Assembly: GCA_001054945.1 (NCBI GenBank)
Contig: JVKJ01000005.1
Location: 806,001-870,000 of the forward strand
Length of the DNA stretch: 64,000 nucleotides
Origin: Corynebacterium falsenii
Lineage (GTDB): Bacteria; Actinomycetota; Actinomycetes; Mycobacteriales; Mycobacteriaceae
Reading direction: 5' to 3'
The notes below the pieces were generated by a model, which saw nothing but the letters and a program-made list of their open reading frames with translations, was not told the origin of the DNA and made no database searches. This document shows, in pieces, positions 3,907 to 42,888 of this stretch. Both the position numbers and the translations under genes were made by a program. Within the stretch, counting starts at the first letter, position 1. Every line of letters begins with the position of its first letter.

Positions 3907-6900
3907 ATGACTGACACAACGTTCAAGAAATTCACCAAGAAGTCCTCCAAGGACAACCAAGCCACCGAGCCCCAGCCCAACATTCCTGGCCCTCGGTCCC
4001 TCCCCCTTGTCGGCACGGCGTACTCGATCAACACCGACAATCTCATGCAGTCGGCGGTCGATCTGGCCAAGAAGCACGGGCGTTTCTACCTACACGAGAT
4101 CCCCGGCCGCTCCCCGCTGTACATTGTCAGCTCCTATGCTCTCGTGGACGAACTCTCCAATGAGGACCGCTTCAAGAAGGTCGTCCACCCAGCAATCTCG
4201 GCAGTCAAGGGCTTCGCCGGCAACGGCTTGTTCACATCCGAGCAGGATGACCCCGAGTGGGCTAAGGCTCACCGCATTCTCATGCCCGCCTTCAACCCCA
4301 CCGCGCTGAAGGGCATGTACAGGGGCATGGTTGATGTCGCCGACCAGCTGATGCTCAAGTGGTCACGCACCCGTCCAGATGTGGACGTGGACGTCCCGAG
4401 TGACTTCACCCGTCTCACGCTGGACACCATCGCACTGTGTTCCTTCAGCTATCGCTTCAATTCTTTCTATTCGGAGAAGTTCCACCCATTTGTGGACGCC
4501 ATGGTCGACGGGCTGGCGGAATCAGGCAAGCGTGCGCACGCTCTTGAAATCCAAAAGAAGATCAACGTCCTGGGAGAACGTCGCTTCCAAAAGGACATCG
4601 ACGTGATGAAGGAAACGGTCGATGCCCTCATCGCAGAGCGTCGCCAGAATCCAAGTCCCAAGGGCGAGGAAGACGTCATGGACGTCATGCTTAACGCCAC
4701 GGACCCCGTCACCGGCCAAAAGCTCAGCGATGAAAACCTGCGCTACCAGCTGGTCACCTTCCTGATCGCCGGGCACGAGACCACCTCTGGCCTGCTCAGC
4801 TTCGCGGTCTACGAGCTGATCTCCAACCCCCGGGTGTACAAGAAAGCCCAGGGAATCGTGGACGAGGTCCTGGACGGTCGATTCCCACAGTTCGAGGACC
4901 TCCGCGACCTCGGTTACTTGGACCAGATCCTCCGCGAGGCACTGCGCAAGTACCCAACTGCGCCTGCTTACGCCGTCACGCCGTACGAGACCACGACCAT
5001 CGGCGAAAGCGGCGGAACCGCCGGGGAGCCCGTCACCGTCAACCCCGGGGATACCCTTCTGGTGCTCCTCCCCCACCTGCATACTGACCCCGAAGTGTGG
5101 GACAACCCAGACGAGTTCCGTCCGGAGCGCTTCGACTTCGAGAACGCGAAGAAGATCCCGCACAACGCGTGGAAGCCTTTCGGCAACGGGCAGCGCTCCT
5201 GCCTCGGCCGCGCATTTGCCCTGCAGGAAGCCACCATGGTGCTGGCCCTCCTGCTCCAGCACTTCGATTTCGAGTTCTCGGACCCGAACTACAAGTTGAA
5301 GATGCTGGATGGCCTCACCTCCAAGCCGGAGGACCTGTACATCCACGTCCACCAGCGTTCCAAGTACCCCTACCACGGTCCGCACGGTGGGGACGGGCTG
5401 AACTCCAGTGGAGGGGCGGCGTCAGGAATGGACAACCCCTTCGAGGACCTCAGCGAGGAAGTGGAGAGCAACGGGCACTGCATTCGGCTCCTGGTGGGGT
5501 CCAACGCAGGGACCTCTCGAAATTTTGCCAACCGTCTGGCCAGCTTCGCGGGCGCACAGGGATACGAGACTCGCGTGGAGGATCTCGACTCAGCGGTCGA
5601 CAACCTCGACCCCGAGGAAACCCTGCTCATCTGCACGTCCTCGTACGAGGGATTGCCTCCCGACAATGCGAAGAAGTTCGTGGCCTGGCTCGAACAGCAG
5701 CAGGAAGAAGGCAACAACACGGCCCTCAACGGCGTGAACTACGCGGTCTTCGGCTGCGGCAACAGTGAATGGGCAAGCACCTTCCACCGCATCCCCAAGC
5801 TGATCGATGATGGCTTGGAAAAGCTCGGCGCACATCGAATCACCGAGCGCGGCGAGGCAGATGTTCGCGGTGACTACGTTGGTGTGTTCCAGGACTGGAC
5901 AGAAAAGCTGTGGCCAAAGGTCGGTGAACTGACCGAAGTCAAGATCGATACCTCTCTCGGCTCAGAAGACATCAGCGCCGAGATCGTCGATGGCGGCCGT
6001 GGTGAAGTTCTGCGCTCCGAGGGCGCGGACGGATATGTCGTCGGGCACGTTGAGAACATCGAGAAGCTCAGCACCGATGCCGACGGCCCTGTCCCGGACA
6101 AGTACCGCGTGGACATTCGCCTGCCCGAGGGCACCGAATACACCACGGGCGACTACCTGGAGTTCCTTCCTCATAACTCGGACTCGCTGGTTGACCGTGT
6201 CCTGGATCGCCTGCACCTGACTGGCGACCAGCGCGTGGTCCTCGATGGGCGCTCAAGCTTCCTGCCGATCAACGAGCCCATTAGCCTTCGCGAGCTCCTG
6301 GGTTCGTATGTCGAGCTCAGCACGCCCGCAGGACAGCGGCAGGTCCGGGAACTGGCGGAGAATTGCCCCTGCCCACCCGAGCAGAAGGAATTGCAGGAGC
6401 TGGCCAGCGACGAGCACTACGATCGCATCCAGAAAGAGCGCCACAGTGTGCTGGATCTGTTGGAACGCTTCCCCTCCGTTCAGATCGACTTGTCGCAATA
6501 CCTGAGCATGCTCATGCCGCTGGCTCCACGCCGCTACTCCATCTCCTCCTCCGCGTTGAAGGATCCGCAGCTGGCCAGCATTACATTCTCCCGTGTGAGC
6601 TCCCCCGCCTGGTCCGGTCAGGGTGTCTTTGAGGGCGTGGCCACCAACCACCTCACCCGCCTAAAGGTGGGCGCACCGGTGACTGTCACCGTCGTGGAGG
6701 GCAGCGACGAGTTCCGCGGTGAAAAGGACGTGTCCCACCCGATGCTGCTGGTGGGAGCCGGCACGGGGATTGCCCCATTGCGCGCCTTCATTGAGGACGC
6801 CGCCATCAAGGCGGAATCCAACGACAGCGAGCCAGGCCAGTCCCTGCTGTTCTTCGGCTGCCACGGACCTGATTCTGACTTCCTCTACCGGGATGATCTT

Positions 6901-7212
6901 GAGAAGTGGGAGAAGCAGGGTGTGGTGGAAGTCCGTACGGCGTTCTCTCGCCACCCGGAGAATGGAGAAGAGGACGACATTCGGTACGTGCAGCACCGTC
7001 TGTGGAACGACCGTGAGGACGTCATCCAGTACCTCAACGACGGCGCTCGGGTGCTGGTCTGCGGTGATGCTTCCACGCTGGCCCCAGCTGTCCGCGAAAC
7101 CATGACGGACATCGTGGCTCAGCAGAAGGGCGTGTCCGCCGAAGAGGCCAAGAGCCTGGTCGAAAAGATGGAACGGGAGGAGTTCACTTACGTTTCCGAT
7201 GTCTTCACCTAG
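3907..7212 (+). CDS. Self-sufficient cytochrome P450-reductase fusion (CYP102/P450 BM3 type)
   Basis: 1101 residues, collinear with Bacillus P450 BM3. Heme domain: I-helix AGHETTSG (Thr292), ExxR in EALRKYP, heme-ligand loop FGNGQRSCLGR with Cys432. Positions equivalent to the BM3 fatty-acid contacts Arg47, Tyr51 and Phe87 are kept (Arg68, Tyr72, Phe109). The reductase half has an FMN-binding flavodoxin domain (from about residue 525, SNAGTS), the FAD motif RRYSISSS near 875 and the NADPH motif GAGTGIAPLRAF near 950. It should hydroxylate medium- to long-chain fatty acids near the omega end using NADPH and O2, in the cytosol. An acyl-CoA synthetase follows 97 nt later, a likely partner. There is no ribosome site before the ATG. 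Confidence 0.96.
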   Translation: MTDTTFKKFTKKSSKDNQATEPQPNIPGPRSLPLVGTAYSINTDNLMQSAVDLAKKHGRFYLHEIPGRSPLYIVSSYALVDELSNEDRFKKVVHPAISAVKGFAGNGLFTSEQDDPEWAKAHRILMPAFNPTALKGMYRGMVDVADQLMLKWSRTRPDVDVDVPSDFTRLTLDTIALCSFSYRFNSFYSEKFHPFVDAMVDGLAESGKRAHALEIQKKINVLGERRFQKDIDVMKETVDALIAERRQNPSPKGEEDVMDVMLNATDPVTGQKLSDENLRYQLVTFLIAGHETTSGLLSFAVYELISNPRVYKKAQGIVDEVLDGRFPQFEDLRDLGYLDQILREALRKYPTAPAYAVTPYETTTIGESGGTAGEPVTVNPGDTLLVLLPHLHTDPEVWDNPDEFRPERFDFENAKKIPHNAWKPFGNGQRSCLGRAFALQEATMVLALLLQHFDFEFSDPNYKLKMLDGLTSKPEDLYIHVHQRSKYPYHGPHGGDGLNSSGGAASGMDNPFEDLSEEVESNGHCIRLLVGSNAGTSRNFANRLASFAGAQGYETRVEDLDSAVDNLDPEETLLICTSSYEGLPPDNAKKFVAWLEQQQEEGNNTALNGVNYAVFGCGNSEWASTFHRIPKLIDDGLEKLGAHRITERGEADVRGDYVGVFQDWTEKLWPKVGELTEVKIDTSLGSEDISAEIVDGGRGEVLRSEGADGYVVGHVENIEKLSTDADGPVPDKYRVDIRLPEGTEYTTGDYLEFLPHNSDSLVDRVLDRLHLTGDQRVVLDGRSSFLPINEPISLRELLGSYVELSTPAGQRQVRELAENCPCPPEQKELQELASDEHYDRIQKERHSVLDLLERFPSVQIDLSQYLSMLMPLAPRRYSISSSALKDPQLASITFSRVSSPAWSGQGVFEGVATNHLTRLKVGAPVTVTVVEGSDEFRGEKDVSHPMLLVGAGTGIAPLRAFIEDAAIKAESNDSEPGQSLLFFGCHGPDSDFLYRDDLEKWEKQGVVEVRTAFSRHPENGEEDDIRYVQHRLWNDREDVIQYLNDGARVLVCGDASTLAPAVRETMTDIVAQQKGVSAEEAKSLVEKMEREEFTYVSDVFT

Positions 7213-41799: not shown

Positions 41800-42057
41800 A
41801 AATCCCGCGACCAGGAGCCTCCCACACCATCATGGCTCTACGCCGATCAACGACAAGCTGCAGCCGGTTCACTTGACCTCGTTGCTGAGATCGCCGGCGC
41901 CATGGAAACCACCGGCGAGACCACCCCGAGCCACAGTGCAGGTACAACCACTCCGAGAGGTTTAGAATCCTTGCCCCTCCACCGATACATCACCGGCTGG
42001 TCATCGCTACCGAAATCAGAAGAGATCTCACTCAATCAAGAACTCATATCAATCTAA
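41800..42057 (+). pseudogene. Decayed coding fragment
   Basis: An 85-codon open stretch without a good start codon, ending at TAA 42055-42057. The translation reads like the C-terminal end of a protein (SWLYADQRQAAAGSLDLVAE, then a Thr/Pro stretch). It carries the first copy of the 46-bp direct repeat, in the same reading phase as the second copy. I cannot name the parent gene. Confidence 0.4.
41915..41960 (+). repeat. 46-bp direct repeat, copy A
   Basis: 40 of 46 bases match copy B (42843-42888). Both are read in the phase encoding ETTPSH-TTTP. The two copies flank the yjdF gene and its structured leader. Confidence 0.75.
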
Positions 42058-42203: not shown

Positions 42204-42626
42204 CTATTTTCCTTTTCGCTTAGAGATTCGCTTTTCTTGGCGCTGCTTCCATGACCGTTCTTTACTCTTCCGGCGTTGCTCAATTGTAACTTTCTTTTGA
42301 TGAGCTTTGGCAAGTTCAAAATCAAGATGCAATGCATCCTGCGCTTTCGAAGATGGGCCATCTTCCTTCAATTTTTTATTAATTGCACGACGCAATCTCT
42401 TTGGATTGCCTCGTGTTGGTGCAGCAAGAGTTCCCGATACCGGCGCTGCAGAGTGAGCATCCCGAACCAATTTTGCTCCGTGGATCAGCATCCAGTCGTA
42501 TAGTTGCGCGTTCGTGGGCTCTGGACCAAAGGTCACCATGACGGCGCGTAGTTGGTGATGAGACGAAGTTTCATACACTCCGCGCCAAAATTGTCCATCG
42601 AAAAAAAGAGTAAATTGTGCAGGCAT
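42204..42626 (-). CDS. yjdF: YjdF family protein (DUF2992)
   Basis: 140 residues. The N-terminus QFTLFFDGQFWRGVYE and FGPEPTNAQLYDWM match YjdF of Bacillus, as does the middle NPKRLRRAINKK. The C-terminal 40 residues are a very basic Lys/Arg/Glu coiled helix ending KRISKRKGK. Function is unknown; in Bacillus the gene is controlled by the yjdF riboswitch, which binds azaaromatic compounds. Low GC here and placement among decayed fragments suggest transfer, perhaps from Firmicutes. No Shine-Dalgarno stands before the ATG; a hairpin ends about 10 nt upstream of it. Confidence 0.82.
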   Translation of the reverse strand: MPAQFTLFFDGQFWRGVYETSSHHQLRAVMVTFGPEPTNAQLYDWMLIHGAKLVRDAHSAAPVSGTLAAPTRGNPKRLRRAINKKLKEDGPSSKAQDALHLDFELAKAHQKKVTIEQRRKSKERSWKQRQEKRISKRKGK

Positions 42627-42790
42627 AAAGGTCTTTCAGGTTCGCGTAAGGCGGACCTGATGACACCGGATTCCCCAATATCTGAATTGGGGCGACGAAC
42701 GCCTGCTAGGCATCGCCCGGACTTCCTACCGGGACTGTGCGTTTTGTTACATCAGGATCGTACGGTTCCCATCGTAACAGCGTGCAAATA
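42627..42790 (-). ncRNA. Structured RNA beside yjdF (candidate yjdF-type riboswitch leader)
   Basis: About 160 nt that can fold almost entirely into consecutive stems. From the yjdF side: a 10-bp stem with TCAGGT/ACCTGA (within 42636-42661), CCCCAAT/ATTGGGG (42673-42692), GGGCGA/TCGCCC enclosing GCCT/AGGC (within 42690-42720), CCCGG/CCGGG (42716-42733) and TGTTAC/GTAACA (42745-42779). It immediately precedes yjdF, which points to a 5' leader on the minus strand. However, two helices pair better through G-U on the plus strand, so the transcribed strand is open. I could not check it against the riboswitch consensus from memory. Confidence 0.55.
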
Positions 42791-42842
42791 TGTCAGCTTG
42801 CAAAGTCCAAATTTTGTGAGTCAATCCTCCCACCCCACACCA

Positions 42843-42888
42843 GCGAGACCACCCCGAGCCACAGGGAAGCCACAACCACTCCGGGGGG
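42843..42888 (+). repeat. 46-bp direct repeat, copy B
   Basis: Partner of copy A, 928 bp apart. It lies in an open frame running to a TGA at 42977-42979, which looks like another coding tail without a credible start and overlaps the structured region. Confidence 0.75.

Follow-up and report, generated by a model that had tools for sequence, protein, structure and literature searches.

The azaaromatic or yjdF riboswitch (Rfam RF01764) has been described as occurring almost exclusively with yjdF, for which reason its discoverers could not infer its natural ligands from the neighbouring genes in 2016 (PMC4793209). In the crystal structure, the A14-U55 pair is the floor under the ligand and A15 touches A97 at the side, while the scaffold is held by the contacts A17-U58, C18-G57 and G53G54-C117C118 (PMC10987639). 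Some actinobacterial yjdF riboswitches were already reported with the class (PMC4793209), and leaders from Nocardia, Coriobacteria and some Streptomyces (type A below) score above the Rfam cut-off, so that occurrence in actinobacteria is not in itself new; an earlier note on this DNA had described the class as known mainly from Firmicutes.

We investigated a yjdF leader within a 64,000-nucleotide stretch of Corynebacterium falsenii DNA (hereafter the window). A structured leader does lie beside yjdF, as had been proposed, with the PF11208 gene starting at 42626. The 164-nt stretch first singled out folds at -56.1 kcal/mol on the minus strand (z -2.41, with 4 of 200 shuffles as good), and its plus-strand fold is also better than shuffles (z -3.71). 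The strong structure claimed is thus borne out by both values and by comparative covariation; the minus-strand z of -2.4 is by itself modest and unconvincing, and the comparative evidence is decisive.

The gene is sporadic in Corynebacterium (4/201 genomes). For its relatives, a search of genome contigs with a single protein gave no match and an alignment query succeeded; the yjdF loci read came from Corynebacterium, Rhodococcus-type, Actinomyces, Pseudonocardiaceae and other actinobacterial genomes. Plasmid DNA searched with the leader region gave no match. A 51-bp direct repeat, 86% identical (41910-41960 and 42838-42888, 928 bp apart), brackets the yjdF unit and occurs nowhere else in the genome, possibly as the trace of a yjdF cassette insertion.

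An Rfam scan of the whole 64-kb window found no family at gathering scores. At relaxed thresholds (E<=5, 701 nt searched), RF01764 was the sole family, matching the whole length of its model to 42760-42647 of the minus strand at 19.6 bits, with an E of 1.3 over 4227 families, or by division about 3e-4 as a one-family test. The suggested kinship with RF01764 therefore stood in so far as this was the only family on either strand, and fell short in that 19.6 bits lies far below the 45-bit cut-off. We additionally built a covariance model, R1, from 14 type C actinobacterial yjdF leaders (alignment A2) with the window excluded. R1 matched 42759-42622 of the minus strand at full length (92.6 bits, E 7.5e-23), the only significant match in the 64 kb; a second match (6896-6972, 12.1 bits) was taken as chance. 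Over all yjdF loci, R1 recovered the classic type A and B leaders at the right place, the best reciprocal match being a Firmicutes classic leader (34 bits, E 6e-7).

The test for covariation among homologous leaders that the earlier note had proposed came out in favour of the RNA, with the held-out window recovered as above. Within P2 to P5 of A2, both sides had changed in 16 of the 27 pairs, 90.6% of cells were paired against 25-49% with a slid partner, and the covariation score was 0.48 against 0.05-0.14, although alignments of 14-16 related sequences make such counts overstate the independent events. For P1, 110 of 128 cells were paired over 16 leaders, a value that none of 2000 shuffles attained, kinship being ignored. 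The P2 core was common to the leaders of all intact actinobacterial yjdF genes inspected. Together, the held-out match, the covariation and the reciprocal matches show that the RNA is real, lies on the minus strand and is homologous to the yjdF riboswitch; from the full-length alignment and reciprocal matches up to E 6e-7, the aptamer core shares ancestry with RF01764. The strand, previously considered unsettled, is the minus strand as judged from the strand-specific R1 match and from the relatives. The features of the locus are as follows.

42204..42626, minus strand: yjdF gene (DUF2992, 140 aa; PF11208, E 7.8e-34), the presumed controlled gene
42622..42759, minus strand: whole putative variant yjdF-type riboswitch, subtype C2 (R1 match)
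42776-42771, minus strand: candidate -10 hexamer TACGAT, from the TANNNT pattern
42756-42750, minus strand: P1 5' strand CCUGAUG, pairing with 42662-42656
42737..42741, minus strand: J1/2 positions 14-18, C14 G15 C16 A17 C18 (numbering of PMC10987639)
42715..42735, minus strand: P2 stem with loop L2 UAGGAAGU (42728-42721), from A2 covariation and R1
42698..42714, minus strand: P3 hairpin, a covarying helix in R1
42693..42697, minus strand: J3/4 CGUCG (equivalents of G95 U96 C97), from alignment A2
42673..42692, minus strand: P4 hairpin CCCCAAU/AUUGGGG, its loop not an anti-Shine-Dalgarno (fold, R1)
42668..42669, minus strand: J4/1 CC (equivalents of C117-C118), the invariant CC of A2
42662-42656, minus strand: P1 3' strand (P1') CAUCAGG, overlapping the 5' arm of P5
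42660-42636, minus strand: P5 hairpin UCAGGU-C-CGC / GCG-A-ACCUGA, mutually exclusive with P1 and ending at the ribosome-binding site
42637-42633, minus strand: probable degenerate Shine-Dalgarno GAAAG, at the place of GGAGA or GGAGG in relatives

This anatomy departs from the five consecutive stems drawn previously, which missed P1 and included promoter DNA; the real elements are a long-range P1, P2, P3, P4 and a P5 that competes with P1. The outermost helix of that drawing (42736/42785) is probably untranscribed, because it overlaps the promoter-like TACGAT at 42776-42771. Of 17 leaders, 13 have a TANNNT hexamer whose end lies 6-18 nt ahead of P1, and in the window the transcript is predicted to start at about 42764. 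The helix at 42636-42660 had been thought to pair fully only as plus-strand RNA; its tenth pair is a C-A mismatch that reads as G-U on the plus strand. Relatives carry C-U at this site, giving 8/10 pairs on the plus strand and 9/10 on the minus strand, and a plus-strand RNA, whose perfect 10-bp helix is not kept in relatives, was rejected. In Rhodococcus-type leaders P1 is reduced to just 5 bp. The GG of L2 and the CC of J4/1 are invariant in A2 and are predicted, by analogy with the G53-G54 contact (PMC10987639), to pair with each other. An extra helix between J1/2 and J3/4, proposed by RNAalifold, is 91% paired in relatives but still 87.5% when slid by 3 columns, and the window keeps 2 of its 4 pairs.

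We identified a set of leader types distinguished by the residues at positions 14, 15 and 55. Of the classic leaders, 53 of 56 have AA/U at these positions; the residues are CU/U in all 20 of type C1 (Pseudonocardiaceae and the leader L012), CG or UG/A in 10/10 of type C2 (Corynebacterium, Actinomyces and Rhodococcus-like leaders, including the window), GY/U in 11 of 12 type D leaders and GA/U in 8/9 of type E. The window carries C14 G15 and A55 (A42724) in place of the classic A14 A15 and U55. Position 97, as read by eye from A2, is A in classic leaders, U in C1 and C in C2. The pair 17-58 is canonical in all of 107 leaders (A-U in 93, G-C in 11, G-U in 3). With residues 14, 15, 55 and 97 differing around preserved scaffold contacts, a shift in the ligand set is probable, and such a concerted change around a kept scaffold would fit the pattern of variant riboswitches with altered specificity. 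Scores against RF01764 were 34-55 bits, where scored, for type B leaders (Streptosporangiaceae, some Streptomyces) and 19.6-25 bits for type C leaders, with one relative at 25 and most relatives unreported. In L044 and the type B leaders, G-C replaces A-U at the pair 17-58, and the crystal contact is thereby tested by a natural compensatory change. One further Corynebacterium locus (L009, genome G042) has a decayed type C leader with an extra hairpin before P2, and its yjdF matches DUF2992 over the first 33 residues only. In a tree of the short YjdF protein, bootstrap values were unsettled and the leader types clustered, with C1 and C2 not single clades; its "A" label took in genes without the RNA, and the tree was left out of the conclusions.

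The yjdF start had been described as having no Shine-Dalgarno. The position exists, being GGAG[AG] in relatives and the degenerate GAAAG here; the 16S tail of this genome is CCTCCTTTCT (GGATCACCTCCTTTCT occurs 4 times), and GAAAG could pair with its CUUUC. A CCUCC in P4 complementing the Shine-Dalgarno, present in most type A leaders, is absent in the window, and in most type C leaders the Shine-Dalgarno partner sits in P5. P5 either covers the Shine-Dalgarno or lies directly against it, and shares part of P1' through its 5' arm, which points to a translational ON switch by exchange of P1 and P5. For every one of the 16 leaders computed, the fold with P5 is more stable than that with P1 by 1.3-11.2 kcal/mol without ligand, energies that ignore tertiary structure as well as the ligand. 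Without ligand, P5 would form and hide the ribosome-binding site beside the yjdF start (OFF). Sandwiched between L2, J1/2 and J4/1, a planar aromatic ligand would lock P1, removing the 5' arm of P5 and freeing the site, so that YjdF could be translated (ON); the ON direction is that suggested by the modelled folds. A type C aptamer in Actinomyces oris (L057) has another downstream hairpin over the Shine-Dalgarno (GGGACUCC...GGAGUCCC), its platform having been replaced.

In 249 Pseudonocardiaceae genomes, R1 scored 100-116 bits on the yjdF leaders, recovering all six, and 35-46 bits on four more sites, each of the four lying upstream of an FAD-binding_3 (PF01494) monooxygenase. RF01764 independently matched the same four (40.6 bits with an E of 6e-5, 31.9, 24.3 and 22.9), and a monooxygenase-linked leader found later (L122) reached 45.1 bits, just above cut-off. 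A model built from the four (R2) matched 28 of 75 genomes of one genus; the sites inspected comprised type C1 yjdF leaders, nine of type D and eleven of type E (one, L146, matched on the opposite strand and was typed from the reverse complement). The inspected D and E leaders lie directly before monooxygenase-like ORFs, with PF01494 in 8/8 tested and the L132 protein outside the test. A model of type E leaders alone (R3) finds type D up to E 2e-7 and types A, B and C weakly, which places type E, with its enlarged L2, within the yjdF superfamily. Types D and E both show a hairpin resembling P5 that carries the Shine-Dalgarno (AAGGGA or AAGGGG) and adjoins or overlaps P1'. Among the best-scoring relatives of these enzymes in NCBIfam and PDB are the FAD-dependent urate hydroxylase HpxO, Tet(X) and rifampicin-type monooxygenases, at scores far below equivalog cut-offs. 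Three genomes with monooxygenase leaders (G1176, G1246, G1164) have no detected yjdF, and among the Pseudonocardiaceae with D or E leaders before FAD-dependent monooxygenases (L113-L125, L132-L149) some also have yjdF (G1259, G1291). One type C leader (L136, in G1330) is followed by neither yjdF nor another recognisable ORF, and is either an orphaned switch or one whose gene was lost. On plasmids, the monooxygenase search gave only matches below 40% among those listed. The word "monooxygenase" is absent from the main text of PMC4793209, and among the open-access main texts searched we found no paper joining yjdF, riboswitch and monooxygenase. The monooxygenase link is consistent with an RNA that would sense an aromatic toxin or metabolite and induce its oxidation or neutralisation.

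We conclude with good confidence that the leader is a cis-acting variant riboswitch of type C2 within the yjdF (azaaromatic) superfamily, a predicted ON switch of P1 and P5 whose ligand set has probably shifted; it likely works as the yjdF riboswitch does. It is not filed as a member of RF01764, because its score lies below the cut-off and its pocket residues and expression platform are other than those of that family. What is new is the C2-type subtype, in its pocket residues, in its expression platform and in relatives linked to monooxygenases. The suspicion that the locus held a yjdF-riboswitch relative of different layout, whether a new member of the class or another RNA, is upheld, and the checks suggested along with it proved apt.

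An ordinary yjdF riboswitch that has merely drifted, with the same broad azaaromatic ligands and an Rfam model that fails on GC-rich actinobacteria, is the most serious alternative, and has an appreciable though lesser chance of being right. The gene is the same, as is the scaffold of L2 and J4/1, several scores are intermediate, and the classic RNA is promiscuous, so that pocket changes may leave its ligand range unaltered (PMC4793209). However, the pocket changes are concerted and type-specific (10/10, 20/20, 11/12 and 8/9), which is not drift, the expression platform is different, and related types have another target gene. It is unlikely that the leader is instead protein-binding or autoregulatory, bound for example by the basic YjdF: the C terminus of that protein is rich in Lys and Arg (PMC4793209, and visible in the sequence here), but the homologous class has solved ligand-bound structures (PMC10987639) and related leaders precede unrelated monooxygenases in the three genomes where yjdF was undetected. 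A structured antisense RNA on the plus strand opposite the yjdF leader, for which the better single-sequence z and the one perfect 10-bp helix speak, is highly improbable, given that the helix is lost in relatives, that the strand-specific R1 matches the minus strand and that in homologues the gene follows on the leader's own strand.

For the variant riboswitch favoured here, the relatives with systematically changed pockets provide a clue to the ligand, as they precede a gene of known biochemistry, encoding FAD-dependent aromatic monooxygenases that belong by fold with Tet(X), HpxO and rifampicin monooxygenase. Tentatively, and at somewhat less than an even chance, types C, D and E may be variant aptamers with re-tuned pockets, those of Pseudonocardiaceae inducing FAD monooxygenases, with enzyme substrates as the natural ligands and YjdF serving the same detoxification. 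The link makes the ligand question testable, the candidate ligand being the enzyme substrate, and the natural series of pockets (A14A15/U55, C14U15/U55, Y14G15/A55, G14Y15/U55, G14A15/U55) can be read against the crystal structure.

Compared with the classic yjdF riboswitch (RF01764; PMC4793209; PMC10987639), the window shares the yjdF leader position, P1 to P4 around the GGNAG loop of P2, C16, C18-G57, G53G54 with a downstream CC, the pair 17-58 kept by covariation and, as predicted here, a translational ON switch. It differs in scoring 19.6 bits against 45, in the change of A14A15/U55 to Y14G15/A55 in its subtype, and in a P4 without anti-Shine-Dalgarno, with control of the Shine-Dalgarno falling to the P5 that overlaps P1'. 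The type B leaders of Streptosporangiaceae and Streptomyces are likewise actinobacterial, precede yjdF and have CGAA in J1/2, but they keep A14A15/U55, have G17-C58 rather than A17-U58, and in several cases carry a Shine-Dalgarno complement in the P4 region. Types D and E share with the window P1, the P2 loop, the CAC before P2 and a Shine-Dalgarno in the 3' arm of P5 by P1', and the models cross-detect; they differ in G14Y15/U55 (D), in G14A15/U55 and an enlarged L2 (E), and in the downstream gene.
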